Below are positions 6,940-30,462 of a stretch of 64,000 nt of DNA, in pieces (the stretch's first letter is position 1; each line of letters starts with the position of its first letter). The stretch lies in assembly GCF_014204915.1 (NCBI RefSeq), contig NZ_JACHMH010000001.1:3807501-3871500 (forward strand), read 5' to 3'. A program made the translations under genes and the position numbers. The DNA comes from Crossiella cryophila. GTDB lineage: Bacteria > Actinomycetota > Actinomycetes > Mycobacteriales > Pseudonocardiaceae. A model generated the notes under the pieces. It ran no database searches, was not told the origin of the DNA, and saw nothing but the letters and a program-made list of their open reading frames with translations.

Positions 6940-7895
6940 CCGCGGCGATGCTGCCGCGACTGGCCCGGCGTACGGCGATCCTGCTGGTCAGCACGCTGAT
7001 CGCGTCCGTGGTGGTGTTCGCCTTCCTGGCCCTGCTGCCCGGTGATCCGGCCCAGGTGGCGCTGGGTCTGAGTGCCTCGCCCGAGCTGCTCGAACAGACC
7101 CGGCGCGAGTTCGGCACCGACCGGCCGCCGCTCACCCAGTACCTGGACTGGCTCGGCGGGTTCGTCACCGGCGAGTTCGGCCGCTCCTACGTGACCAGGG
7201 AACCGATCGGCCCGCAGCTGATGGACCGGCTCGGCGTGACGATGTGGCTGGTCGGGGCCGGGATGCTGGTGGCGCTGCTGATCGCGGTGCCTGCCGGGGT
7301 GTACGCGGCGATGGCACGGCGGCGGGCCGGTGGGGTCGCGGTGTCCTGGCTGAGCCAGCTCGGCCTGGCCGTGCCCGGGTTCATCGCGGGCATCCTGCTG
7401 GTGCAGCTCTTCGCGGTGCGCTGGCAGCTGCTGCCGGCCGGCGGCTGGACGCCGCCGGTGCGGGATCCACTGGAATTCCTGCGTGGACTGGTGCTGCCCG
7501 CGCTGGCCCTCGGGCTGGTGCAGGGCGCGGTGCTGACCAGGTACGTGCGCTCCGCGGTGCTGGATGTGTCCACAGAGGACTATCTGCGCACGGCGCGGGC
7601 GAAGGGGCACACCAGGTTCAGCGCGCTGCTGCGGCACGGGCTGCGCAACGCCGCCGGGCCGGTGCTCACCGTGCTCGGCCTCCAGCTCACCACGCTGCTG
7701 ATCGGCGCGGTGGTGGTGGAGCGGGTGTTCGTGCTGCCGGGGCTGGGCAGCCTGCTGCTGGACGGGGTCGCGGCCAGGGACCTGCTGGTGGTGCAGAACG
7801 TGGTGATGGTGCTGGTGTGCGCGGTGCTGCTGGTCAACTTCGCGGTGGACGTGCTGCACACGGTGCTCAACCCTCGGCTGCGGCAGGCCACGTGA
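6936..7895 (+). CDS. ABC transporter permease, DppB/OppB type
   Basis: 319 residues from a GTG at 6936 that overlaps the stop of the binding-protein gene in GTGA, a sign of translational coupling; an ATG at 6948 is the alternative. It has the N-terminal 'ARRTAILLVSTLIASVVVFA' helix and the 'LLPGDPA' loop typical of DppB-type permeases, then five further membrane segments. The cytoplasmic EAA-type loop reads 'YLRTARAKG..RFSALLRHGLRNA'. It pairs with the next gene product to form the membrane channel. Confidence 0.9.
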   Translation: MTAAMLPRLARRTAILLVSTLIASVVVFAFLALLPGDPAQVALGLSASPELLEQTRREFGTDRPPLTQYLDWLGGFVTGEFGRSYVTREPIGPQLMDRLGVTMWLVGAGMLVALLIAVPAGVYAAMARRRAGGVAVSWLSQLGLAVPGFIAGILLVQLFAVRWQLLPAGGWTPPVRDPLEFLRGLVLPALALGLVQGAVLTRYVRSAVLDVSTEDYLRTARAKGHTRFSALLRHGLRNAAGPVLTVLGLQLTTLLIGAVVVERVFVLPGLGSLLLDGVAARDLLVVQNVVMVLVCAVLLVNFAVDVLHTVLNPRLRQAT

Positions 7896-8719
7896 GCGCG
7901 CGCCAGGGCCGCTCGGCCAGCCTGTGGGCCGGGACCGTCCTCATCGGACTCGTGGGCTGCGCCGCGCTGCTGTCGCTGCTGTGGACCCCGCACGACCCGA
8001 CGCTGGTGGACGCCACGCTGCGGCTGACCGGGCCCGGCCCGGAGTACTGGCTGGGCACCGACCGGTTCGGCCGCGACATCGTCAGCCAGCTCATGATCGG
8101 CGCGCAGACCACGCTGCTGATCGGACTGGTCTCGGTGGGCGCGGCGGCGCTGATCGGCACCCCGCTCGGCGTGCTGGCCGCACTCGGGCCCGGCTGGCTG
8201 GACGAGCTGGTGATGCGGGCCAACGACCTGCTGCTGGCCTTCCCGACCCTGTTGCTGGCCATCATGTTCGGCGCCGTCTTCGGTGCGGACACCTCCACCG
8301 CGATGATCGCCATCGGCATCGCCACCGTGCCCGGGTTCGCCCGGATCGCCAGGGCGGCCACCGCGCAGGTGCGCTCGGCGGAGTTCGTGCTGGCCGCGCG
8401 GGCCGCCGGGCGCGGGCGGACCGGGATCGCGGTGCGGCACGTGCTGCCCAACATCGGCGGCCTGGTCATCGTGCAGGGCTCGGTGTCCTTCGCGATCGCG
8501 GTGCTGGCCGAGGCCGCCCTGTCCTACCTGGGCTTCGGCACCCGGCCGCCGACGCCGAGCTGGGGCCGGATGCTGCAGGAGTCCCAGGAACTGCTGTCGG
8601 TGGAACCGCGGCTGGCGGTGGCGCCCGGGATCGCGATCGCGGTGGCGGTGCTGGGGTTCAACCTGCTCGGCGACGGGTTGCGGGACCGGTTCGACCCTCG
8701 GCTGGTGAGTCGGTCATGA
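7892..8719 (+). CDS. ABC transporter permease, DppC/OppC type
   Basis: 275 residues. The GTG start at 7892 overlaps the stop of the preceding gene (GTGA). It carries the DppC hallmarks 'HWLGTDRFGRD'-like sequence ('YWLGTDRFGRDIVSQLMIGA'), several membrane segments and the EAA loop 'SAEFVLAARAAGRGRTGIAVRHVLPN'. It is the second half of the membrane channel of this importer. Confidence 0.9.
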   Translation: MSARQGRSASLWAGTVLIGLVGCAALLSLLWTPHDPTLVDATLRLTGPGPEYWLGTDRFGRDIVSQLMIGAQTTLLIGLVSVGAAALIGTPLGVLAALGPGWLDELVMRANDLLLAFPTLLLAIMFGAVFGADTSTAMIAIGIATVPGFARIARAATAQVRSAEFVLAARAAGRGRTGIAVRHVLPNIGGLVIVQGSVSFAIAVLAEAALSYLGFGTRPPTPSWGRMLQESQELLSVEPRLAVAPGIAIAVAVLGFNLLGDGLRDRFDPRLVSRS

Positions 8720-9540
8720 GTGTGCTGAGCGTGGCGGAGCTGACCGTGTCCACTGCGCATCGCGCGCTGGTGCGCGGGGTGTCCTTCGAGGTGGCGCGGG
8801 GCGAGCGGGTCGGCTTGATCGGCGAGTCCGGGTCCGGCAAGACGATGACCGCGGCCGCGGTGATGGGGCTGCTGCCCGAGGGCGTGCGGGCCACCGGGTC
8901 GGTGCGACTGTCCGGAGTGGACGGTGACCTGCTCCGGCTGCGGGAGCGGGAACTGGCCAGGGTGCGCGGGCGGCGGATGGCCATGGTCTTCCAGGAACCG
9001 ATGACCGCGCTCAACCCGGCCATGCGGGTGGGCAGGCAGGTCGCCGAGGCGATGACCCTGCACCGCACCAGGACCCGCCGCGCGGCCAAGGCGGCCGCGG
9101 TGGAGTTGCTGGACCAGGTGCGGCTGCCCGATCCGGAGATCACCGCGCGGGCCTACCCGCACGAGCTGTCCGGCGGGCAGCGGCAGCGGGTGCTGCTGGC
9201 GATGGCCCTTGCCAACGACCCCGAGGTGCTGATCTGCGATGAGCCGACCACCGCGCTGGACGTCACCGTGCAGGCCAAGCTGCTCAAACTGATCCGCGCG
9301 GTGACCGAGGAACGTGGCACCGCGCTGCTGTTCATCACGCACGACCTGGCCGTGGTCGCCGACATGTGCGAGCGGGTGCTGGTCATGCACGGCGGCCGGG
9401 TGGTCGACGCGGGCCCGCTGCCCGGCCTGTTCACCAGCCCGCGCCACCCCTACACCCAGGGCCTGCTGGCAGCATCCGACCTGGAGAAACTCGACGAGCA
9501 CGGGAAACTGCGCACGATCACCTGGAATGGCGATGACTGA
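8716..9540 (+). CDS. ABC transporter ATP-binding protein, DppD/OppD type
   Basis: 274 residues. ATG at 8716 overlaps the upstream stop (ATGA). Walker A reads GESGSGKT, the signature LSGGQRQR, Walker B VLICDEPTTALD, with the switch His in 'FITHDLAVVA'. The C-terminal segment ends with 'HPYTQGLLAA', typical of oligopeptide transporter ATPases, although the usual Cys-rich Fe-S extension of some DppD proteins is not evident. It powers the permease pair encoded upstream. Confidence 0.92.
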   Translation: MSVLSVAELTVSTAHRALVRGVSFEVARGERVGLIGESGSGKTMTAAAVMGLLPEGVRATGSVRLSGVDGDLLRLRERELARVRGRRMAMVFQEPMTALNPAMRVGRQVAEAMTLHRTRTRRAAKAAAVELLDQVRLPDPEITARAYPHELSGGQRQRVLLAMALANDPEVLICDEPTTALDVTVQAKLLKLIRAVTEERGTALLFITHDLAVVADMCERVLVMHGGRVVDAGPLPGLFTSPRHPYTQGLLAASDLEKLDEHGKLRTITWNGDD

Positions 9541-19084: not shown

Positions 19085-20060
19085 ATGTCCAGGAACGGGG
19101 TCGCTCTCGCCGCTGCCGGCGGAGCGTGGCCCGTGCTGGCCGGTTCGGCCGGTGCGGACACGGTGCAGGTCACCGTGTTGCGCGGGGCCACCCTGATCGA
19201 CGGGGCCTGCGTCGCGCCCTGGCCGGGGCGCGGGAGATGTGGGGGCTGGCCGAATCGCATCAGGCCCGGCGGGAGTTCGAGGCCGGGACCGCGCTCGGGC
19301 GGCGGTCCCGGCCGAGCATGCCAAGGGTGCGGAGTTCATCAAGGTCTATCAGATGCTCACGCCGGAGTTGCTGACCACGATCGCGGATGAGGCGGATCGG
19401 CTGGGGCTGCGCATTGCCGGGCACCTGGCGGATTTTGTGCCGGTGGACGCGGCGCTGGTGCGGCGGCAGAAGTCCTACGAGCACATGTTCGGGTTCCTGT
19501 TCGGCACCTCGCGGGAGGAGGCCGAGTACCGGCGGACTGGCCCGGAAGCTGCGGGAGCGGGATGGGTGGCTGTCGCCGACGTTGCGGGCGATACACATGG
19601 CGACCTCGCCCAAGGAGACCTTCGCCGGGGACGAGCGGATGAGGTAACTGCCGCCGTTCTACCGGCAGTACTGGGCGGATGGGGCGGCCCGGTGGGCGCC
19701 GGTGACGCCGGAGCAGATCGCGCAGCAGCGGGAGTTCTATGAGCGGCAGTCGCGGCCGGGTTGTCGCCGATGGCCGCGTTGCAGACGGTGACCCGGGACG
19801 CGGCCCGGTATCTGGGGCTGGCTTCCTCGGTGGGCACGGTGTCGGTGGGGAAGAAGGCGGATCTGGTGGTGCTGGAGGCGGATCCGCTGGCCTCGATCGC
19901 CAATGTGCGGCGGATTCACTCGGTGGTGAGCCGGGGGCGGGTTTTTGGCCCTGCGGAGCGGGTTCGGTTGCTGGGGGAGATCGAGCGGGCCGCGTTGGAG
20001 TGGCAGCCGCCGGTGGCCGCCTCGCGTGCGGGCGAGGTTTTGGCGGGGCGGTGTTGCTGA
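19085..20060 (+). pseudogene. Decayed amidohydrolase, paralogue of the next gene
   Basis: Segments in different frames match the intact amidohydrolase at 20117 in order. First come an N terminus with 'VQVTVLRGATLIDGA' (19085 on), and, after an internal deletion of about 70 residues and a frameshift, 'REMWGLAESHQARREFEAG'. Then follow 'AEFIKVYQMLTPELL', 'RIAGHLADFVP' and 'YEHMFGFLFGTSREEAEYRR', and, after another shift, 'GDERMR' ended by an in-frame TAA at the point where the intact copy continues 'YMPPFYREYW'. The stretch with the GTDTGNP metal site is deleted. The C terminus 'GKKADLVVLEADPLASIANVRRIH' remains open. At least two deletions, two or more frameshifts and one stop make it non-functional. 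Confidence 0.88.
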
Positions 20061-20101: not shown

Positions 20102-20116
20102 GTGCAGGCTGCGGGA

Positions 20117-21613
20117 ATGCGTGCGAACGGGACGAGCCGCCGGGAGTTCCTGGGCTGGCTCAGTGGGATCGGGGCGGCCGCGGCTGCCGGGAGCCTGATG
20201 GGCTCCGGGGTGGCCGCGGCCGCTGATTCTGTTGCGGTGCAGGTGTTGCGTGGGGTGACGCTGGTGGATACCGGTGCTTCTCCCGTGCGGCGGGATGCCA
20301 CCTTGGTGTTGGGGGAGGGGCGGATTCTCGCGGTGGGTGGGCGGGATCTGCCGGTGCCCGCGGGGGCGGAGGTGTTCGATCTGCCTGGGAAGTATGTGAT
20401 TCCCGGGTTGTGGGACATGCACGTGCACGGGGCTTTCCTGGAGAAGGTCACGCTGCCGCTGTGCCTGGTGCACGGGGTGGTGGGGTTCCGGGAGATGTGG
20501 GGGTTCCCGCAGCACCATGATCTGCGGCGGCGGATCGAGGCCGGGGAGGTGTTCGGGCCTCGGTTGATCATTGGCAGCGCGATCATCGACGGGCCGGATT
20601 CGGTGTTGCCGATGGCGTTGATCGTGCGGACGCCGGAGGAAGCGCGGAAGGCCGTGCGGGACTCGGTGGCCGGCGGGGCGGATTTCGTGAAGGTGTATCC
20701 GTTCCTGGACCGGGTGCTGTTGCGGGCGGTGGCGGATGAGTGCCGGGTGCTGGGGGTGCGGTTCGCCGGGCATGCCTCGGATCATGTGCCGATGAGTGAG
20801 TCGAGTTCGCTGGGGCAGCGGACTTTTGAGCACATGTACGGGTTGCCGCTGGCGACGAGCACCCGGGAGGCGGAGTTGCGGCGGCGGATCGCGGCGATGC
20901 CGTTGGATCCGGCGGATCCCTTCGTGTGGTTCAAGGGGGTGCGGGAGATCGAGCGGGAGGCCGCGTTGAGCCACAGCGCGGTGAAGGCTCGGGTGCTCGC
21001 GCATCAGTTGCGGCGCAATGGGTCCTGGCAGTCGCCGACGATGGTGGCCATGCGGGTTTTCTCCTCGCCCGCGGCGGAGTTCGTGGGGGACGAGCGGATG
21101 AAGTACATGCCGCCGTTCTACCGGGAGTACTGGGCGGGGCAGCTGGCCCGATGGTCTCCGGTGACGGAGCTGGAGATCCGGCAGCAGCGGGAGTTCTTCG
21201 ACGCTCGGCTGCGGATGGTGGCGGAGCAGCACCGGTTCGGGGTGGGGACACTGCTGGGGACCGACACCGGGAATCCCTATGTGTTCCCCGGGTTCTCGGC
21301 GCACGAGGAGCTGGAGTTGCTGGTGCGGGCGGGGTTGTCGCCGATGGACGCGTTGCGGGCCGGGACTTCTGAGGTGGCTCGGTTCCTGGGAGAGGCGGCG
21401 GGGGCAGGCACCCTTGCGGTTGGGCAGCGGGCTGACGTCGTTGTGCTGGACGGGGATCCGCTGGCCTCGATCGCGAACACGCGGCGGATTCACCTGGTCG
21501 CCACTCGCGGGCGGGTGATCACCGCGGCGGATCGGGTGCGGATGCTGGCCGAGGTGGAGCAGGCCGCGTTGGAGCCGCCGGTGGCGGGTGTCGCGCGGGT
21601 CGGGTGTTGCTGA
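20117..21613 (+). CDS. Tat-exported amidohydrolase family protein
   Basis: 498 residues from ATG at 20117. The N terminus has a twin-arginine signal (SRREFLGWL, then a hydrophobic stretch ending in 'GVAAAADS'), so the folded enzyme is probably exported. It belongs to the imidazolonepropionase-like amidohydrolase superfamily. 'VFDLPGKYVIPGLWDMHVHG' has the HxH metal motif, a Lys follows in 'GADFVKVYPF', 'FAGHASDH' and 'RTFEHMYG' supply further His ligands, and 'GTDTGNP' gives the metal-binding Asp. The closing 'GQRADVVVLDGDPL' is typical of the family. The substrate is unknown; a cyclic amide or peptide-like bond is the family expectation. It is preceded by its decayed paralogue and ends three bases from the convergent ECF operon. 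Confidence 0.85.
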   Translation: MRANGTSRREFLGWLSGIGAAAAAGSLMGSGVAAAADSVAVQVLRGVTLVDTGASPVRRDATLVLGEGRILAVGGRDLPVPAGAEVFDLPGKYVIPGLWDMHVHGAFLEKVTLPLCLVHGVVGFREMWGFPQHHDLRRRIEAGEVFGPRLIIGSAIIDGPDSVLPMALIVRTPEEARKAVRDSVAGGADFVKVYPFLDRVLLRAVADECRVLGVRFAGHASDHVPMSESSSLGQRTFEHMYGLPLATSTREAELRRRIAAMPLDPADPFVWFKGVREIEREAALSHSAVKARVLAHQLRRNGSWQSPTMVAMRVFSSPAAEFVGDERMKYMPPFYREYWAGQLARWSPVTELEIRQQREFFDARLRMVAEQHRFGVGTLLGTDTGNPYVFPGFSAHEELELLVRAGLSPMDALRAGTSEVARFLGEAAGAGTLAVGQRADVVVLDGDPLASIANTRRIHLVATRGRVITAADRVRMLAEVEQAALEPPVAGVARVGCC

Positions 21614-21616
21614 GGG

Positions 21617-22477
21617 TCACTTCGGTGGCGTGAAGGTCACCGGGGCGTCGAAGGCCGCTCTTCTGGAAGCGCGGCGTAGTACCGCCAGTACCGCGTGGCC
21701 GGTCAACAGGATCGCGATGGTGTTGGTGATGGCTCTGCCGGTGTCCCAGCCGAAACTGGAGGTGATCAGGGTGAAGATGAAGAAGCGGTGCAGGTTGTCG
21801 CCCAGCGGGGCGCCGGGGATGTAACCGAGTTGGGTGTCGATGGTGGCGGTGAAGGGCCAGAACCACATGTTCATCACGAAGCCGAAGGCGTAGGCGGCGA
21901 AGATGCCGTAGCCGACGAGCATCGCGATTTCCCAGCGGCCCTTCACCCTGCGGGGGAGCAGGCCGGCGCCCAGGCCGATCCAGGAGCTGGCGATCATCTG
22001 GAACGGCAGCCAGGGGCCAACGCCCGCGGTGAGCAGGGCGGAGGCGAACAGGGAGGTGGAGCCCAGGACGAAGCCGAAGCCCGGACCGAAGACCCGGCCT
22101 GCCAGGACCAGGAGGAAGAAGACGGTTTCGATCCCCGCGGTGCCGGCGCCCAGGGGGCGCAGGGCGGCGTTGATGGCGGAGAGGACGCCGAGCATGGCCA
22201 GGGCTTTGGTGTCCATGCCGCCGGTGGTGATCTCGGCCAGGATGATCGCCAGCAGGACGGGGAGGGCGATCAGGAAGATCAGCGGGGCGTCGTTGCTGTG
22301 CGCGATGGCTTCCGGCTGGGCGACGGCGAAGAGGGGCCAGAGGAACATGGCCAGGCCCGCGATGGAGGCGATGGTGAGGACCAGCGCCGTGCGGGGGCTT
22401 ACCCGGAGGGCGCGGGGGTCCAGGGTGGGGAGGGTGTGCAGTTTCGGGGCGGGGGCGGGCTTGGGGGTCTTTGTCAT
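21617..22477 (-). CDS. ECF transporter S component, probably for cobalamin
   Basis: 286 residues with an N-terminal cytoplasmic tail and about seven hydrophobic segments. It resembles substrate-capture (S) components of energy-coupling-factor transporters: 'LGVLSAINAALRPLGAGTAGIETVFFLLVLAGRVFGPGFGFVLG' contains the small-residue helix and the 'GPxxGFxxG' turn seen in vitamin S components. It is the last gene of a five-gene coupled operon (ATGA overlap with the ATPase gene) whose leader is a cobalamin riboswitch. That context is the reason to propose B12 or a corrinoid as ligand. The C-terminal tail 'TFTPPK' is cytoplasmic. Confidence 0.8.
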   Translation of the reverse strand: MTKTPKPAPAPKLHTLPTLDPRALRVSPRTALVLTIASIAGLAMFLWPLFAVAQPEAIAHSNDAPLIFLIALPVLLAIILAEITTGGMDTKALAMLGVLSAINAALRPLGAGTAGIETVFFLLVLAGRVFGPGFGFVLGSTSLFASALLTAGVGPWLPFQMIASSWIGLGAGLLPRRVKGRWEIAMLVGYGIFAAYAFGFVMNMWFWPFTATIDTQLGYIPGAPLGDNLHRFFIFTLITSSFGWDTGRAITNTIAILLTGHAVLAVLRRASRRAAFDAPVTFTPPK

Positions 22478-24078
22478 GACAGGGCCTCGGCTACCTCGGC
22501 GACCGTCAACCAGGGCTGGGGGTTGAGGATTTTGGCTACCTGGGGGGCGAAGGCGGGGCTGGCGATGATGATGTCGGCGGTGGGTCCGTCCGCGACGATC
22601 TCGCCTTCGGCCATGACGGTCACCCGGTCCGCGGTGTTGGCCACGAGTTCCACGTCGTGGGTGGCCACCACGACGGTCCGGCCCTCGCTGGCCAGGGCGC
22701 GGATGAGGGTGGCGAACTCCTTCTTGGCCGTGTAGTCCAGGCCGCGGGTGGGTTCGTCCAGGAGGATCACGTTGGGGGCCGCGGTCAACTGGATGGCCAG
22801 GACCAGGGCCAGGCGTTGGCCTTCGGAGAGGTCACGCGGGTGGGTGGTGTCCTGGATGTTGGGGGCCAGGCGGTTCAGGATGGTGCGGCAGGTTCCCTGG
22901 GGGGACTGGCTTTCCTGGTCGGCCTCGGCGCATTCGGCGGCGACGGTTTCCAGGTAGAGCAGGTCGCCGGGGGTTTGCGGGACCAGGCCGACCAGGGATC
23001 GGGCTGTCGCCGCGGAGACCGCCCGGGGGTCCTGGTTGTTGACCGAGACGGTGCCGCCCTGGCGGGGGCCGGAGCCTTGCAGGGCCCAGAGGAGTGAGGA
23101 CTTGCCGGAGCCGTTCCGGCCCATCAGGGCGAGGATCTGGCCCTGGTGCAGGGAAATGGTCAGTTCGCGGACGGCGATCACCTGGCCGTAGCGGACGGTG
23201 ATGTTGCTGGCGGCGAGGATGGTGGGGGAGTCGGTGGCGGTTCTGCCCTGCGTGGGTTGGGGTTTGTCCGCCAGTTGAGCGCGCAGGGGGGCGGCCTGGC
23301 GGCGGGCGTCCCGGATGGAGAGGGGGAGCGGGGACCAGCCTGCCAGGCGGCCGAGTTCGACCACGGGGGGTGCGATGGTGGTGGTCTGCAGGAGGGTGGC
23401 CGGGGGGCCTTGCTCCAGGGTTTTGTTGCCGGGTAGGTGGATCAGCTGGTCCGCGTACTGGACCACGCGTTCCATCCGGTGTTCGGCCACCACGACGGTC
23501 ACGCCCAGGTCGTGGACCAGGCGGGTGATGGCGGCCAGGACGTCCTCGGCGGCGGTGGGGTCCAGGGCTGAGGTGGGTTCGTCCAGGACCAGGACCCTGG
23601 GGTGGGTGGTGAGGACCGAGCCGATGGCGACCCGTTGTTGCTGGCCGCCGCTGAGTGTCCGGAGTGGACGGTTGCGGAGTTCGGCGATGCCCAGGAGATC
23701 GAGGGTTTCCTCCACTCGCTTGCGCATCACCTCCGGCGGGATGGCCAGTTGTTCCATGCCGTAGGCGAGTTCTTCCTCGACCGTGTCGGTGACGAAGCCC
23801 GCGAGGGGGTCCTGGCCGACCACACCGACCAGGTGGGCCAGGTCCCGTGGTTTGTGGGTTCGGGTGTCCAGGCCGTTGATGGTGACCCGGCCGCGCAGGG
23901 TGCCGCCGGTGAAGTGCGGGACCAGGCCGTTGATGGCGCCGAGGAAGGTGGACTTGCCGGTGCCGGTGCGGCCGGTGACCAGGCAGAGTTCGCCCTCGCC
24001 GATTTCCAGGTCCACTGTGGACAGTGTGGGCTCGGCGGCGCCCGCGTACTGGATGGAGACCTGCTCGAACCTGATCAC
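22474..24078 (-). CDS. ECF transporter fused A-A' ATPase
   Basis: 534 residues from GTG at 24078, which overlaps the stop of the T-component gene (GTGA). Two complete ABC ATPase domains lie in tandem. The first has Walker A GRTGTGKST, signature LSGGQQQRV and Walker B VLVLDEPTSALD. The second has GRNGSGKSS, a less canonical signature LSEGQRLAL, and VILLDEPTRGLD. This is the fused form of the EcfA/EcfA' pair that drives a group-I ECF transporter. The adjacent T and S genes make the transporter complete. Long reading-frame extension upstream of 24078 runs through the T gene in another frame and is not coding. Confidence 0.9.
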   Translation of the reverse strand: MIRFEQVSIQYAGAAEPTLSTVDLEIGEGELCLVTGRTGTGKSTFLGAINGLVPHFTGGTLRGRVTINGLDTRTHKPRDLAHLVGVVGQDPLAGFVTDTVEEELAYGMEQLAIPPEVMRKRVEETLDLLGIAELRNRPLRTLSGGQQQRVAIGSVLTTHPRVLVLDEPTSALDPTAAEDVLAAITRLVHDLGVTVVVAEHRMERVVQYADQLIHLPGNKTLEQGPPATLLQTTTIAPPVVELGRLAGWSPLPLSIRDARRQAAPLRAQLADKPQPTQGRTATDSPTILAASNITVRYGQVIAVRELTISLHQGQILALMGRNGSGKSSLLWALQGSGPRQGGTVSVNNQDPRAVSAATARSLVGLVPQTPGDLLYLETVAAECAEADQESQSPQGTCRTILNRLAPNIQDTTHPRDLSEGQRLALVLAIQLTAAPNVILLDEPTRGLDYTAKKEFATLIRALASEGRTVVVATHDVELVANTADRVTVMAEGEIVADGPTADIIIASPAFAPQVAKILNPQPWLTVAEVAEALS

Positions 24079-25190
24079 CGGTGCTGCTCCGTGGTGGGTG
24101 GGGGTGGGCTGAGCCAGGCGGGCAGCACGGCGATGAGCACACCGATGCTGGGCAACAGGGACAGTTCGGGCCAGGCCAGTGGGTTCAGCGAGGGGTAGAG
24201 GTTGGTCGGGTCCACCGCGCCGGTGAGGAAGAGCAGCGCGCCCGCGGTGATGCCGGTGGCGGCGACCAGGATCTCCGGCAGGTGCCAGTGGTCGGGGCGG
24301 TAGATGCTGCGCTGGACGCGTTTGCCGCCGATGACGAAACCCGTCGCGGCGATGGCCAGTCCGCCCAGCAGGAAGGGCAGGCCGAGGGCGCGGGGAGTGG
24401 TGCCGTCCAGGAGGCCGTACACGCCGACGCAGACGCCGGAGAGGCCGAGCAGCACCAGGGTGCCGGTGAGCAGGCGGGATCTGGGGCTCGCGGTGCCGCG
24501 GCGGCCGTAGCCGCGGGAGTCCATCGCGGCAGCCAGCAGCAGGGAGCGGTCCAGCGCGTCGGCCAGTACCGGGATGACGATGCCGCGCAGGGCCCGCATG
24601 CCGCGTTGCCTGCCGCCGCGCAGGCGGCGGGCGCGGCGGACCCGGTGCACGCTCTCGATCAGTTGCGGGGCAACGGAAAGGGCCACGACCACGGCCGAGC
24701 CGACCTCGTACAGGGCGCCGGGGACGGCCTTGAGCATGCGTTTGGGGTTGGCCAGGGCGTTGGCGGCGCCCAGGCAGATCAGCATGGTGGCCAGGCGCAG
24801 GCCGTCGTAGAGGCCGCCCAGCAGTTGTTCGGCGGCCACCGGGCCGAACAGGCGGATGCCCGCGACCAGTTCGGGCAGCACGATCTGCGGCAGGGTGAAC
24901 AGCACCGTCTCGCCCTGGCCGCCGCCGAAGATGATCCGGAACAGCACCCGCATCAGGATGATGAACGCGCCGAAGAGCAGGTACATCCGGAAGGCCAGCG
25001 CCCAGGGCGCGTTGCCGCGGCGGCTGACCACCACGTAACCGGCCACCGCCAGGATCATGATCAGCAGCAGCGGGTTGGTGGTGCGGCCGGCGGCGGTGGC
25101 CAGGCCCAGCGCCCACACCCACCACGCGCCGGGGTGGAGGGTGCGGGGCAGCCTGGTCGAGCGCCGTGTCACGGCTTGGGTCAGGGTCAC
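24075..25190 (-). CDS. ECF transporter T component (EcfT)
   Basis: 371 residues, GTG at 25190, one base after the stop of the upstream gene. The N-terminal half has four to five membrane helices. The coupling region shows the two EcfT signature motifs: 'HRVRRARRLRGG' (the Ala-Arg type motif) and 'AAAMDSRGYGRRG'. These helices touch the ATPases. Further membrane segments follow in an unusually long C-terminal half (about residues 235-360), so the protein is larger than typical EcfT proteins of about 260 residues. Confidence 0.88.
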   Translation of the reverse strand: MTLTQAVTRRSTRLPRTLHPGAWWVWALGLATAAGRTTNPLLLIMILAVAGYVVVSRRGNAPWALAFRMYLLFGAFIILMRVLFRIIFGGGQGETVLFTLPQIVLPELVAGIRLFGPVAAEQLLGGLYDGLRLATMLICLGAANALANPKRMLKAVPGALYEVGSAVVVALSVAPQLIESVHRVRRARRLRGGRQRGMRALRGIVIPVLADALDRSLLLAAAMDSRGYGRRGTASPRSRLLTGTLVLLGLSGVCVGVYGLLDGTTPRALGLPFLLGGLAIAATGFVIGGKRVQRSIYRPDHWHLPEILVAATGITAGALLFLTGAVDPTNLYPSLNPLAWPELSLLPSIGVLIAVLPAWLSPPPPTTEQHR

Positions 25191-25191
25191 G

Positions 25192-26064
25192 TCAGCTCGG
25201 GTTGTCGGCGTTGCGGCGGCGACGCCAGGCCAGCAGGCCCGCGCCGGTCATGAGTACGGCCACCGCGCCGATGCCGAGTGCGGTGGAGAGCGGGAAACCC
25301 TGCTCCGCCTTGGGTTTCTCAGCCTCCACGCCACCGGTCCAGGCCAGTCCCTCACTGGTGGAGGGCGGAGTGCTCGACGAGGTTGGCGTGTCCGAAGTGG
25401 ACGGTGGGGTGGTCGCCGAGGTCGGTTCGCCGCTGGGTGGCGGGGTATCCGAGCTGGGCGGCGGGTTCCCGCCGGGAGGTGGCTGACCGCCGGGCGGTGG
25501 GTTGCCACCGGGGGGCGGGTTGCCGGGCGGGGGATTGCCGGGCGGCGGCTGGTTGGTGCGCGGGGGTTGCTGGGGGTTCGGGCGCCTGGGGGCGATGCGG
25601 GGGGCCGGGTTGGACTCGGCGCTGCGGTCCTTGGAGAAGGACCAGCCCTCGAAGCTGCCCGGTGGCGGCGTCCGGTTCATCACGCCGAGCTGGCTGTAGG
25701 TCCAGCCGCCGCCGTTGGGCGCGTGCCAGTAGGACCAGTAGGCGCTGGCGGGCGGGGTGTCCATGCAGGGCTCGGTGTCCTTGCCCGGCTTGCCCTCGAT
25801 GCGGCAGATGAACGCCTCGCCCCAGCGGTTGGTGCCGGTGATGTTGATGCCCGCGGCCCGCAGCGCGGCGTGGCCGGTGGCCTGTTTGCCCGGCGCGCAG
25901 CGGATGATCGTGCTGCCGCCGAGCTGCTGGAAGTCGATGATCACGGTCACGCCGGTGTCGTCGGGGCAGTAGCCGGGGGTGCCCGCGGCGAAGGCCGGTG
26001 GCGCGCCGATCGTCGTGCCCGCGAGGACCGCGAGCACGACGATCAGCTTGCGTAGTGCGGTCAT
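25192..26064 (-). CDS. Wall-anchored protein with transcobalamin beta-domain-like module
   Basis: 290 residues, ATG at 26064 overlapping the upstream stop. A signal peptide ends near 'APPAFAAG'. Residues about 28-140 form a compact domain with four Cys ('GYCPDDTGVTVIIDFQQLGG..RCAPG', 'FICRIEGKPG', 'EPCMDTPPASAYWSYWHAP', 'FEGWSFSKD'). It is nearly the same as the N-terminal domain of the next, larger protein and resembles the DUF4430-like domain that forms the beta-half of transcobalamin and intrinsic factor. A Pro/Gly/Ser/Thr linker of about 90 residues leads to LAWTG, a membrane helix and RRRR, a class E sortase signal. It is probably displayed on the cell wall to bind a corrinoid. The domain assignment is by recognition only. 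Confidence 0.75.
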   Translation of the reverse strand: MTALRKLIVVLAVLAGTTIGAPPAFAAGTPGYCPDDTGVTVIIDFQQLGGSTIIRCAPGKQATGHAALRAAGINITGTNRWGEAFICRIEGKPGKDTEPCMDTPPASAYWSYWHAPNGGGWTYSQLGVMNRTPPPGSFEGWSFSKDRSAESNPAPRIAPRRPNPQQPPRTNQPPPGNPPPGNPPPGGNPPPGGQPPPGGNPPPSSDTPPPSGEPTSATTPPSTSDTPTSSSTPPSTSEGLAWTGGVEAEKPKAEQGFPLSTALGIGAVAVLMTGAGLLAWRRRRNADNPS

Positions 26065-28826
26065 GCCGCCCGCCGCCTGCGGGTCAGCACCACCATGGCC
26101 GCTCCGGCGCCCAGCAGCAGCGCGCCCGCGAGCAGGGTCTCGGAGACCTCGGCGCCGGTGCGGGCCAGTGCGGCCGGGCGGTACTGCGGCTGCGGGGCCG
26201 GACCGGGATCGGTGCCGGGACCCGGGTTCGGGTCGTTCGGCGGCGGGTCGTTCGGTTTGGGCTCGGGCTTCGGGTCGGCGGGCCTGGCCACCCGCTCGGC
26301 CGGCTTGACCGGGCCGTTGTCCTTGCTGAGGAAGGACTTCCCGGCGGTGGCGGGCAGGGCCTGGGCGCTGGCCAGCAGGTTGCTCTCGGCGCCGGGGTTG
26401 AGCGGCAGGCCGCCGTCCTGGCGCTGCAGGCTGAGCAGCCAGGCGCGGCTGTCCTTGGCGTCCTGGCGGACCCCGAGCAGGCCCATGGTGGCGTAGGCGG
26501 TGCTGTTGACGTTCTCGCCGCCGGGGCCGATCCAGGAACCGTTGCCCTGGCGCAGTTTCTCCAGTGCGCGCACCGATTCGGTGAGCGCGGTCTTGCGATC
26601 CGGGCTCAGCGCGCCGCCGTTCTTGGGCACCGCGTTGAGGGCTTGCAGGGCCAGGCCGGTGGCATCGGCGGTGCCGGTGGCGCAGCCCTCGGCGGCGGGG
26701 AAGCCGACCGGCACGGTGGCGTCCTTGCAGCGGGCCGCGGCCAGTGCGGTGGCGGCCTTGTCCGCGCGGGTGGTGTCACCAACGGCGGTCAGCGCGAGGA
26801 TGCCGAAGGACTGGCCGAAGGTGTTGGCGTTGTTGCCGAACTCGCTGATGTCGGCGAACCGGCCGTTGTCCCCGAGCAGGCCGCTGAGCTGGTCGATCAG
26901 GTCGATGCCGCCGACCGCGCGCGGGTTCTTCCCGGCCAGGGTGAACAGGAAGGCGAGCTTGGCGGTGGCCCCGGCGTAGCGGGCGCCCGGCTTGTCGAAG
27001 GGCTTGCCCTGGGTGTATGCCTCGACGCTGTCCTTCTTGTCCAGGAAGGCCAGCACCTTGGTCAGGCTGCTGGGCTGCCTGCCGGAGAGCAGCAGGCCGT
27101 AGGCGACGTCCGCGGTCTGGCCGTAGTCCACAAAGGACTGTCCGCCCGCGGTGACCTCGACGTGGTCGCCGTTGACCAGCTTGCCGGTCAGGTACTTGGC
27201 CAGCTTGCCGTTGGGGCCGGCGTCCGGGACCTCGGGGCCGAGTTCGCCCAGCGGCACCCCGGCCAGGGTGAGCAGCGCTTGCGCGGTGGCCCGGCGCCAG
27301 GAGTCCTGCGCGCCCGGCAGCTCGGGGAAGCCGTCCTTGACCGCCTCCTCGAACTGCGCGCGGTTCCAGGCGATACCGCCTGCCTGGGCGCCTGCCTTGC
27401 CGCCGTTGTCCTTGGTGAGCTGGTGCGAGCGGACGAACTCGGCGGCCCGCTCGGCCGCCTTGGTCCGGCCACCGGCGGCCAGTGCCTGCCCGCCGAGTCC
27501 GGTGCTGTTGGTGTTGGAGGGCGCGGTCGGGCCGGAGCCGCCGATGCCGCCCGCCTCGTCCTGCTTGCTCTCCAGCCAGTTCAGCCCTTTGGTCGCCGCA
27601 TCGGCCGCGCCGGTGCTGCCGGACCTGGCCGCGGTGAGCAGGGCCTGCACGGCCATGCCGGTGGAGTCCGGGTCCAGCACCGCCTTGGGGTCCTCGTCAC
27701 AGCGGGCGCCGGTGGCGCCGAAACTGGTCCAGGACAGCCGGAACCCGCCGGCCGCGCACTGCTGCTTGACCAGGAAGTCCACCACCGGCTGCGGCACCCC
27801 GCCGCTGCGGGCCAGGCCCAGCACGGCGAAGCTCTGGCCGAACAGGTTGGTCTCGGACTTCGGCTGCACATCCCGGTCGCGCAGCTCGCCGGCGAACGCG
27901 CCAGCGTCGGCGCCCGCGATCAGGTTGAGCGTTTCCTGGCGCAGGTCGACGCCGCCGAAGTCGGTCGGGTCCACCCCCGCGGCCACCGCGCCCAGCAACG
28001 CCTTCGCGGTCTGGTCGCCCTGGCGTTCGTTCGGGTTCCCGCCCCACGGGTTGCCGATGTAGTCCAGCACGGAGCGTTCCAGCGCGCCGGTCATCCGCTG
28101 CTGGGCCGCCGGATCGGTCTTGGTGGCCACCAGCGCGAACAACGCGTCCAGGGTCAGCCCGTGGTCGGGCATCTCGGGGCCGATCACCCCGGGCAGCAGG
28201 CCGTCCTTGAGGAAGCCGGCCAGCCAGCGGCTCGCCTCCGGACCACCCGCGGCCACGTCATCGGTCTTGGGCGCGGACCTGGTGTCGGGCTTGGGCTCGG
28301 TCCTGGGCGCGGTCGCGGCCGGCCGGACCGGGGCGACCCGCGGCGGTGGGTTGGTGCTGCCGGTCTTGTCCTTGGAGAAGGACCAGCCCTCGAAGCTGCC
28401 CAGCGGGGGCTTGCGCCCGGTCACGCCGGAGGTGCTGTAGGCCCAGCTGCCGCCGTTGGGGGCGTGCCAGTAGGACCAGTAGGCGTTGGCGGGCGGGGTG
28501 TTGATACATGCCTCGGTGTCCACACCCGGCTTGCCCTGGATGCGGCAGATGAACGCCTTGCCCCAGCGCCGGGTGCCCTCGACCACAAAACCGGAGTTCT
28601 CCAGCGCGGTCAGCCCCGAAGCCTGGTCGCCGGGCGCACACCGGATCTCGGTCGCCCCACCCAGCTCCTGGAAGTCCACCACCACGGTGACCCCGTTGCC
28701 GTCCGGGCAGTAGCCGGGACTGCCGGGAATCGGTGCCGGCGCGGCCGCGGCCAGTGGCGCGGCCATGCTCAATAACAGTGCTGCCCCGGCGAACGCGGAC
28801 AGCGCTCGCCGCCAGATCTGGTTCAT
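26061..28826 (-). CDS. Large wall-anchored transcobalamin-like protein
   Basis: 921 residues; ATG at 28826 is chosen because AGGAAGG lies eight bases upstream and a signal peptide follows (cleaved near 'LAAAAPAP'). Residues about 33-150 are the Cys-containing DUF4430-like domain shared with the next gene. Residues about 195-840 are helical repeats of the squalene-cyclase/prenyltransferase toroid type ('AVLGLARSGGVPQPVVDFLVKQQ', 'TGMAVQALLTAA', 'YATMGLLGVRQ', 'LLSLQRQDGGLPLNPG'), long enough for two alpha6/alpha6 barrels. A Pro/Asp-rich linker and LARTG-helix-RRRR end it, a class E sortase signal. Intrinsic factor and transcobalamin combine the same two fold types. With a B12 riboswitch upstream, a surface cobalamin-binding role is inferred. 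No enzyme motif (DxDD) was seen. Confidence 0.78.
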   Translation of the reverse strand: MNQIWRRALSAFAGAALLLSMAAPLAAAAPAPIPGSPGYCPDGNGVTVVVDFQELGGATEIRCAPGDQASGLTALENSGFVVEGTRRWGKAFICRIQGKPGVDTEACINTPPANAYWSYWHAPNGGSWAYSTSGVTGRKPPLGSFEGWSFSKDKTGSTNPPPRVAPVRPAATAPRTEPKPDTRSAPKTDDVAAGGPEASRWLAGFLKDGLLPGVIGPEMPDHGLTLDALFALVATKTDPAAQQRMTGALERSVLDYIGNPWGGNPNERQGDQTAKALLGAVAAGVDPTDFGGVDLRQETLNLIAGADAGAFAGELRDRDVQPKSETNLFGQSFAVLGLARSGGVPQPVVDFLVKQQCAAGGFRLSWTSFGATGARCDEDPKAVLDPDSTGMAVQALLTAARSGSTGAADAATKGLNWLESKQDEAGGIGGSGPTAPSNTNSTGLGGQALAAGGRTKAAERAAEFVRSHQLTKDNGGKAGAQAGGIAWNRAQFEEAVKDGFPELPGAQDSWRRATAQALLTLAGVPLGELGPEVPDAGPNGKLAKYLTGKLVNGDHVEVTAGGQSFVDYGQTADVAYGLLLSGRQPSSLTKVLAFLDKKDSVEAYTQGKPFDKPGARYAGATAKLAFLFTLAGKNPRAVGGIDLIDQLSGLLGDNGRFADISEFGNNANTFGQSFGILALTAVGDTTRADKAATALAAARCKDATVPVGFPAAEGCATGTADATGLALQALNAVPKNGGALSPDRKTALTESVRALEKLRQGNGSWIGPGGENVNSTAYATMGLLGVRQDAKDSRAWLLSLQRQDGGLPLNPGAESNLLASAQALPATAGKSFLSKDNGPVKPAERVARPADPKPEPKPNDPPPNDPNPGPGTDPGPAPQPQYRPAALARTGAEVSETLLAGALLLGAGAAMVVLTRRRRAA

Positions 28827-28867
28827 CCCCAGTGCCTTCCTCGCGGTGGTCGAGTCCGGCAGGCGCA

Positions 28868-28893
28868 CAGGGGAGCCAACCGGCTCCACCCTG
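28868..28893 (-). promoter_or_regulatory. Strong hairpin in the riboswitch expression platform
   Basis: On the transcript, GGAGCC-GGTT-GGCTCC with flanking CAGGG and CCCTG pairing forms a stable hairpin between the B12 box and the start codon at 28826. It has no T-run. It probably switches pairing with the riboswitch or the ribosome binding region rather than acting as a classical terminator. Confidence 0.5.
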
Positions 28894-28904
28894 TAGTCCT
28901 CGAC

Positions 28905-29020
28905 AGATGAAGCCGCGCAGCTCAGACAGGCACTCCGGCTCGCGATCACGAAGATCGCCTACGGTTGCGGGTCAGCGCCGGGATTTGACCGGCTTCCCCC
29001 GTACTGAGACAGAACCTGAC
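28905..29020 (-). promoter_or_regulatory. Cobalamin riboswitch
   Basis: On the minus strand the leader reads GGGGGAAGCCGGTCAAATCC, then CGCTGACCCGCAACCGTAGG, a short variable stem (GCGATCTTCGTGATCGC), and then GAGCCGGAGTGCCTGTCTGA. These are the conserved core blocks of cobalamin riboswitches in their order: the GGGAA...GGTNAAATCC arm, the CTGNCCCGCAACNGTA junction, and a B12-box-like AGCC.GGA..CCTG. The element starts just after the HxlR regulator gene and ends about 80 bases before the start of the wall protein. It puts the whole ECF operon under B12 control. Confidence 0.88.
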
Positions 29021-29052
29021 GGTACGGCTCCGTACAGCGGGGACACAAGCGG

Positions 29053-29460
29053 CTAGGAGGAGGGCTGCGGCACGTCCGCGGCCCGCTGGTCGAAGGCCCG
29101 CCGCGCGGTCACCACCTGCGGCAGGTTGCCAGTGGACCAGGCCCGCACCGCGGCCAGCGGCTCGGCGGCCGAGCGACCCAGTTCGGTCAGCTCGTAGTCC
29201 ACGCGTAGTGGCACGGTCGGGTAGACGGTCCGGGTGACGAGGCCGTCCCGTTCCAGCGTGCGCAGGGTCTGGGTGAGCATCTTCTGGCTGATGCCCTCCA
29301 GCTTCACGCGGAGTTGGCCGAACCGGCGCGGGCCGTCCTCCAGGGCGCCGATGGTCAGGGCGGTCCACTTGTCGGCGAGCATGTCGAGCAGATCCCGGCA
29401 GGGGCACTGGCGGGAGTAGACGTCCCGCACTTCCGCATCGGGGATCCAGTCGGTTTTCAC
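29053..29460 (-). CDS. HxlR-family transcriptional regulator
   Basis: 135 residues from GTG at 29460, chosen because GGGAAG lies seven bases upstream; ATG codons at 29466 and 29475 are in frame but lack a spaced ribosome binding site. It has a winged-helix HxlR domain: 'LLDMLADKWTALTIGALEDGPRRFGQLRVKLEGISQKMLTQTLRTLERDGLV'-like sequence with the usual 'KWT' and 'RF.L' positions. Two Cys in 'RQCPCRD' near the N terminus are where redox-sensing HxlR proteins carry their reactive Cys. It lies directly upstream of the riboswitch on the same strand; a functional link with the B12 operon is not shown. Confidence 0.85.
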   Translation of the reverse strand: MKTDWIPDAEVRDVYSRQCPCRDLLDMLADKWTALTIGALEDGPRRFGQLRVKLEGISQKMLTQTLRTLERDGLVTRTVYPTVPLRVDYELTELGRSAAEPLAAVRAWSTGNLPQVVTARRAFDQRAADVPQPSS

Positions 29461-29472
29461 CTGCATACTTCC

Positions 29473-29499
29473 CATGGGGTACTTGGTATCACATGGGGT
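29473..29499. promoter_or_regulatory. Direct repeats upstream of the HxlR gene
   Basis: CATGGGGT occurs at 29473-29480 and again at 29492-29499, 19 bases apart, directly upstream of the HxlR-type regulator. The spacing is close to two helical turns and could be an autoregulatory site. Low confidence. Confidence 0.3.
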
Positions 29500-29568
29500 G
29501 CAGGGGTGGGAATGATCCGCACGTCCCCGCCCAGTCCGGCCCCGCCCCGGGGCGGCCCCCGGGGTGGC

Positions 29569-29729
29569 GTACGAGAACGGCCAACACGGTGTACGACGAC
29601 GGCCAACACGGCGTACAAGAACGGCCAACACGCCGGGGAGGGGTTCGGGGGGTTTCAACCCTCCGCGCGTGTTGGCCGTTGTCGTACCGAGTGTTGGCCG
29701 TTTTGGTACGGGGTGTTGGCCGTTGTGGG
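29569..29729. repeat. 3 + 3 array of 22-bp repeats in head-to-head orientation
   Basis: The 19-base unit GTACGAGAACGGCCAACAC (with variants GTACGACGAC.. and GTACAAGAAC..) occurs at 29569, 29591 and 29613, exactly 22 bases apart. Its reverse complement (GTGTTGGCCGTT...) occurs at 29669, 29691 and 29713, again 22 bases apart. The two halves can fold into a large cruciform or hairpin of about 60 pairs with a loop of about 37 bases. The same unit recurs at 30402 and 30424. Confidence 0.85.
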
Positions 29730-29782
29730 CGGGCGGAGCCCGAGGACGGGCAGCCGGGGTGGCTTTTCAAACCTTCCCTGAG

Positions 29783-30340: not shown

Positions 30341-30382
30341 CGTCGTGGGGGTCTACCCCCCAACCCCACACCCCGCCCCGTC

Positions 30383-30442
30383 CCACAACGGCCAACGACC
30401 CGTACGAGAACGGCCAACACTCCGTACGAGAACGGCCAACAC
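30383..30442. repeat. Second 22-bp repeat array
   Basis: Two perfect copies of GTACGAGAACGGCCAACAC at 30402-30420 and 30424-30442, 22 bases apart, follow a degenerate copy (CACAACGGCCAACGAC) near 30383. They have the same unit, phase and orientation as the left half of the array at 29569, so the gene-free block is bracketed by the same repeat. Confidence 0.85.
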
Positions 30443-30462
30443 GGTGGGAGGGGGGGTGGGGG

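Follow-up and report, generated by a model that had tools for sequence, protein, structure and literature searches.

Crossiella is a soil actinomycete. In a 64,000-nt stretch of the Crossiella cryophila genome (contig NZ_JACHMH010000001.1, positions 3,807,501 to 3,871,500; hereafter 'the window', numbered from its first letter), five genes lie behind a short element resembling a cobalamin riboswitch and form what we regard as a probable corrinoid-salvage operon. All are on the minus strand, spanning 28826–21617. In 5′ to 3′ order they encode two predicted secreted proteins, BIG (26061–28826, 921 amino acids (aa)) and SMALL (25192–26064, 290 aa), followed by an energy-coupling factor (ECF) importer: the CbiQ-family transmembrane subunit EcfT (24075–25190, 371 aa), a fused double ATPase, EcfA-A′ (22474–24078, 534 aa), and an S component, the predicted corrinoid-binding membrane subunit (21617–22477, 286 aa). 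Start codons of BIG and EcfA-A′ were chosen within longer open reading frames (ORFs). By their coordinates, the genes meet in three 4-nt overlaps and one 1-nt gap, which bears out the five coupled genes described in an initial annotation of this DNA. The host genome is 10.06 Mb, with Crossiella sp. S99.2 as a near relative; the S component of a Crossiella relative, locus L041, is 95% identical to that of the window.

BIG and SMALL have signal-peptide-like N-termini (judged by eye) and share a domain, D, with four conserved cysteines, the common Cys-containing domain that had first been noticed. In SMALL, D is DUF4430/SLBB-like and is followed by a proline-rich linker; in BIG, D (about residues 30–167) precedes two toroids, R1 (about 197–537) and R2 (about 541–843), with domain limits carried over from L041. 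Both proteins end in the LAXTG-helix-arginine tails originally reported, LARTG in BIG and LAWTG in SMALL, each followed by a hydrophobic helix and RRRR.

EcfT matched PF02361 (39.5 bits; cut-off 25) and, by phmmer, an EcfT chain of solved ECF transporters including 6fnp (E = 4.1e-5). Two stretches of EcfA-A′ gave matches to PF00005 (169.3 bits; cut-off 25), and the protein scored 292 bits with ECF_ATPase_1, under the cut-off of 315. The S component reached 25.4 bits with PF07155, just under the cut-off of 26.7, and 20.8 bits with TIGR04518 (cut-off 60), and no Pfam family other than PF07155 matched it at E ≤ 0.1. The complete ECF importer initially proposed is thus upheld for EcfT and the two ATPase domains, with S just short of its Pfam cut-off.

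A scan of the whole window at the Rfam gathering score gave no match to the cobalamin riboswitch family RF00174. With an E-value threshold, the model was matched end to end (1–189) at 28909–29034 on the minus strand (29.9 bits, E = 1.3e-5 for 901 bases searched) by a short element of 126 nt. Folding of 28800–29040 showed no special stability (z = −0.35). At the same place, an element scored 42.8 bits in the same-genus genome G002 (locus L026) and 30.3 bits in L041; two further relative loci scored 36.1 (L031) and 39.2 bits (L033).

We surveyed relatives by scanning genome contigs with an alignment of the S component, which gave at least 549 related stretches, and kept the best 80 loci, actinobacterial by title. 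Counted anywhere in the locus, among the 67 loci with 6.5 kb or more of sequence ahead of S, D was present in 66 and R in 53, with L049 having neither; the usual position of D is directly before EcfT. By ORF, D alone was the commonest architecture (101), followed by a single R (56), R-R (15) and eight fusions: D-R-R in L041 and L071, D-R in L070, L092, L094 and L113, and R-D in L072 and L073. A reverse test set out from D: of 197 genomes sampled from the class, 108 gave a match to its profile, in many cases a weak one confined to the last third of the profile. At 20 places in 19 of these 108 genomes, taken from many families with neighbours disregarded and possibly overlapping the 80 loci, EcfT, ATPase and S genes adjoined D in 17 (two with divergent subunits). 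Surveyed from either end, the genes co-occur as the initial annotation had expected. The other three places, L189, L200 and L201, have D-type genes with no EcfT, ATPase or S nearby; the genome of L189 has a full operon elsewhere (L190), and L200 and L201 come from 1.2-Mb genomes. At L029, D and R genes adjoin (8311–8832 and 7311–8333) with no matching ECF genes within 18 kb, and a cobalamin riboswitch lies 8 kb beyond the pair.

RF00174 was sought in 63 relative genomes (25 + 38; L099 not included), with matches placed by contig coordinates; the first pass in the 38-genome batch scored 50 candidates per genome, and 14 genomes were scanned a second time. L118 and L120, whose contigs break off at or close to the first gene, were left out of the count, leaving 61 testable loci. 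A right-strand match preceded the first operon gene in 56 of these (47 at E ≤ 0.01, nine weaker at E ≤ 0.1), and 27 relative loci were above the Rfam cut-off. Whole genomes hold just 1–12 matches, so the position in the operon leader is not a matter of chance, and the link to B12 drawn at the outset is borne out. From riboswitch to first domain the median distance was 210 nt (range 63–611), with odd spacing in four of nine second-pass matches (L102, 63 nt; L111, 611 nt; L114, 82 nt; L117, 465 nt). The consensus core was matched at 21–29 of 29 bases at the 56 places, versus 12–17 in 40 random pieces; this fuzzy match, together with position, replaced a strict core pattern, which had found 29 of 63 and missed clear elements such as that of L042. 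Five loci (L066, L075, L076, L085 and L097) have, besides the leader match, a second one inside the operon, ahead of the second R gene.

The host genome holds seven other cobalamin riboswitches, three short (112–134 nt) and four long (177–237 nt); ORFs of at least 150 aa with third-position G+C content (GC3) above 0.85 were considered as the genes behind them. Two of the short riboswitches precede corrin-synthesis genes and one an ATP-binding cassette (ABC) importer whose parts resemble F420-0 and BtuC/D models most closely, with scores under the respective cut-offs. Three of the long ones precede two metE genes and one ribonucleotide reductase gene. The fourth long riboswitch (L034), at 93.6 bits the genome's strongest, lies about 1 kb ahead of a methyltransferase-like gene. 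Corrin synthesis is represented in the genome by cobaltochelatase, CobB and adenosyltransferase; because corrin-synthesis genes and an ABC importer are already under riboswitches, the operon would be an additional route.

For D, hhalign against a DUF4430 profile (24 rows, two of them junk) gave a probability of 75.6, E = 2.4e-5 for the one comparison and a score of 34.7, against 15.6 for the best of 30 column shuffles. An AlphaFold2 model of the L073 R-D protein (46 rows, predicted local distance difference test score (pLDDT) 82.9, predicted template modelling score (pTM) 0.62, weak stretch at 265–319) placed human transcobalamin or intrinsic factor at ranks 1–7 of the PDB fold matches (E = 2.4e-7 to 1.9e-6). 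Alignments to these carriers covered 473–492 columns, gaps included, versus about 200–350 for the enzymes ranked below, and from this length we take both modelled domains to have aligned to the carriers. The model of BIG (43 rows, mean pLDDT 86.6, pTM 0.62) had class II terpene cyclases as its top PDB fold matches, as expected of a double toroid.

At the level of sequence, BIG, queried with two extra residues ahead of its ATG, scored 25.5 bits with SQHop_cyclase_C (cut-off 26.1), and the best PDB match of the R profile was squalene-hopene cyclase (1.8e-31). No relative of the carriers turned up in PDB sequence searches that used BIG, SMALL, S or the D profile as query. In the R alignment, 23 columns are conserved at 95% or more, 13 of them polar and none aromatic; several sit at the starts of predicted helices, and the window keeps 22 of the 23 residues in R1 and 20 in R2. 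Two NCBIfam families, whose model names give no function, resemble the carriers: the R part of BIG matched SCO2321_fam (E = 6.7e-32) and D domains matched SCO2322_fam (about 1e-6; SMALL, E = 1.2e-6), all below the curated cut-offs. The D and R domains and those of the animal carriers look homologous, as published in 2007, and the 'analogue' of animal B12 carriers first suggested is too weak a word.

Anchoring was called across the 80 loci by a simple rule (C-terminal helix, basic tail, LPXTG/LAXTG motif). Of the 66 cases of a D standing last ahead of EcfT, 63 showed a helix with a basic tail (62 lacking a sortase motif; one, L041, carrying it) and three showed neither; among background ORFs, 119 of 4,451 have such a tail and none a sortase motif. 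No anchor was called in 34 of the 35 remaining D proteins, and among 71 R proteins 24 carry an LPXTG/LAXTG motif, 18 a helix only and 29 neither. Judged by their tails, the D proteins nearest EcfT thus nearly always look membrane-tethered in relatives. In the window, SMALL exceeds the NCBIfam LPXTG_anchor cut-off (TIGR01167; 16.5 versus 15.9 bits); BIG carries the motif but scores below the cut-offs of two matched LAXTG/LAVTG models. The host genome has six sortase matches. In G002, SMALL reads SWTG instead of LAWTG and BIG keeps LARTG. From the tail counts and this SWTG, the constant part appears to be a membrane-held D beside the importer, and wall anchoring of both carriers appears peculiar to the window and to L041, its close relative; sortase anchoring of both, as initially described, is not a trait of the system.

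We consider it likely that the operon salvages corrinoids (vitamin B12 or cobinamide). This reading is based on the gene order, the riboswitch association, the linkage of D to ECF genes, the predicted folds and the predicted tethering described above. Going by the riboswitch family, low intracellular cobalamin would allow the leader to permit expression. R and D would be secreted, partly tethered to the wall or membrane, and act like the two halves of transcobalamin or intrinsic factor, the alpha6/alpha6 toroid and the beta-grasp D sandwiching one corrinoid, as fold and family suggest. The D nearest EcfT, usually membrane-anchored, may then deliver the corrinoid to S; its import would, by family, be driven by the fused ATPases together with EcfT. 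The interpretation first offered thus survives in its B12 link, its transcobalamin-like fold, its ECF importer and its co-occurrence of genes, and gives way on the wall anchoring of both carriers and on 'analogue'.

We put forward more tentatively, as an idea with somewhat less than an even chance, that the system is a split transcobalamin. Toroid and beta domain would sit on separate, differently tethered chains, the toroid in the wall, in the membrane or secreted and D membrane-anchored beside the importer; the corrinoid would glue them together and D would dock on S for hand-over. To our knowledge, ECF importers are held not to need an extracytoplasmic binding-protein relay; here one would have gained it. 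If so, the R-D fusions of L072 and L073 would correspond, in bacteria, to the architecture of the animal carriers.

Several results weigh against the corrinoid-salvage reading. The window riboswitch lies below the Rfam gathering score of 31.5, so we call it RF00174-like; the cobalamin riboswitch of the initial annotation is supported by its E value and falls short in bits. No riboswitch match was found ahead of the operon in L083, L084, L091 and L101 (all Amycolatopsis with the order D-T-AA-S, that is, D, EcfT, ATPases and S), and L103 has an internal match only. The host has genes of its own for the corrin ring and a further importer, which may accept B12, so its need of the operon is not obvious. 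By PDB sequence search, S has no sequence relation to CbrT or any other solved S component. D occurs without R in 13 of the 67 loci. BIG scored 16.3 bits with Cobalamin_bind (PF01122; cut-off 25), and PF14478 (DUF4430) matched neither BIG nor SMALL nor anything in the host genome; among aligned rows, PF01122 matched two of 44 R rows (E ≤ 0.01) and PF14478 two of 65 D rows (E ≤ 1, best 0.0017). Superpositions of L073 on transcobalamin had a root-mean-square deviation (rmsd) of 21–23 Å and template modelling (TM) scores of 0.34–0.43; at this rmsd the mutual placement of the two domains is not reproduced. No transcobalamin appeared among the 50 PDB fold matches listed for BIG (terpene cyclases, prenyltransferases and complement domains) or among the best 60 of 82 PDB sequences for the R profile. 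The transcobalamin-like fold initially claimed accordingly has its support in the L073 relative and in the D–DUF4430 comparison, not in BIG's own model. The NCBIfam SCO2322 profile (NF040672) matched 10 of 41 relatives, own genome included and none above cut-off; of four further Crossiella genomes, G003 and G004 gave no D match with it, so the distribution of the operon is patchy.

Among alternatives, the best, which we judge unlikely, is that the substrate is not a complete cobamide but a lower ligand or a precursor of the corrinoid (cobinamide, cobyrinate diamide or dimethylbenzimidazole). A cobalamin riboswitch is blind to which vitamer is imported, late steps of corrin synthesis, CobB and adenosyltransferase among them, are encoded in the host genome, and the excerpted text of a review lists 'cobyrinate diamide uptake' with cbrUVT (PMC8123684). 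The transcobalamin-like R-D pair, in turn, suggests a whole corrinoid. Since the characterised ECF-CbrT takes both cobalamin and cobinamide, as stated in an excerpt of its description (PMC5997447), the two readings are not exclusive.

That the operon is a cobalt (or nickel) importer under B12 control is less probable still. EcfT matches a family that Pfam names 'Cobalt transport protein' (PF02361), and excerpts of two papers report B12 riboswitches ahead of cobalt transporters (PMC2667541; PMC3766115). The sole Pfam match of S at E ≤ 0.1 is a vitamin S-component family, PF07155, just under its cut-off, and for metal-ion uptake a toroid carrier paired with a D carrier would be an unusual arrangement; with no CbiM-like S, we rejected the cobalt importer.

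Least credible, and in our view barely worth entertaining, is that the R proteins are secreted terpene-cyclase-like enzymes with no B12 link: it draws on the cyclases that head the fold matches of BIG and the sequence matches of the R profile and on SQHop_cyclase_C matches (E ≤ 0.01) in 28 of 44 R rows, but was rejected because DXDD, which we take to be the cyclase's catalytic motif, stands at its aligned site in none of the 44 (all carry S, A, T, Y or G where the final D would be) and anywhere in the sequence in two, and the polar, not aromatic, conserved positions, the secretion, the riboswitch and the ECF linkage speak against it as well.

Corrinoid salvage by a system of this kind was predicted by Burroughs et al. 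in 2007. In the excerpted text, a transcobalamin-like clade of SLBB domains lies beside CbiO/CbiQ genes, with B12 scavenging proposed (PMC1796856). It describes these proteins as mostly secreted, several with Gram-positive anchors, and the domain as commonly joined, at its N- or C-terminus, to an alpha/alpha toroid, and in many cases the operon holds a second paralogue; hosts are named among low-GC Gram-positives, planctomycetes and euryarchaea and are said usually to be missing key enzymes for making B12, and one Mycobacterium is named in a Figure 2 legend that does not tell the clade (PMC1796856). The window proteins share with that SLBB/DUF4430 clade their secretion (by eye), a toroid partner and CbiO/CbiQ-type genes in the operon. 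They differ in that the operon is actinobacterial, D is mostly its own chain and, nearest EcfT, looks membrane-tethered, toroids may be double, the riboswitch is short and the host genome has corrin-synthesis genes.

Like animal transcobalamin and intrinsic factor, the system pairs a toroid with a DUF4430-like domain, in L072 and L073 in the same order (toroid first). Unlike them, the bacterial R and D are often cell-anchored and usually split over at least two proteins, and BIG has D first, two toroids and a score short of the PF01122 cut-off. ECF-CbrT of Lactobacillus delbrueckii is given as a proven B12 importer in the excerpt consulted (PMC5997447), and CbrUVT is in use as a label for B12 transporters in excerpts of two further papers (PMC6593275; PMC8123684). 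The window importer resembles both in its EcfT, two ATPase domains and predicted integral-membrane S, with B12 the likely substrate, and differs from ECF-CbrT in that its ATPases are fused and share an operon with their own S, its S has no detectable sequence relation to CbrT and it has extracellular D and R partners.

No experiment on this actinobacterial operon turned up in the literature searched, whose coverage left out most subscription papers and all bioRxiv preprints. The 2007 prediction already covers a bacterial system of this kind; the actinobacterial branch, with carrier domains mostly on separate chains, looks new. As far as our searches show, this novelty extends to the branch's faint sequence relation to DUF4430, to its riboswitch statistics, to chains that are mostly split, to a D held at the membrane and to the R-D fusion that retrieves transcobalamin by fold. 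If the salvage reading holds, the operon would represent a widespread actinobacterial B12 uptake route still without experiment, would show how a thick-walled cell captures a scarce, large vitamin and would give the human B12 carriers living relatives in bacteria that bear on their origin.

Upstream of the operon, an HxlR-type regulator gene (29053–29574, minus strand; 90.6 bits) ends 18 nt ahead of the riboswitch, so the operon promoter would sit within or upstream of that gene. On the other side lies a plus-strand amidohydrolase gene (20102–21613) with a twin-arginine-like N-terminus, and the frame ahead of it (19761–20060) resembles the end of a second amidohydrolase (both judged by eye). 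An interspersed repeat of 22 nt, GTAC-NNN-AACGGCCAACAC-NNN, which often forms inverted pairs, occurs at 29568–29731 and 30379–30452; across the genome its pattern was matched exactly 191 times (92 forward and 99 reverse), versus 0 for a reversed control pattern.

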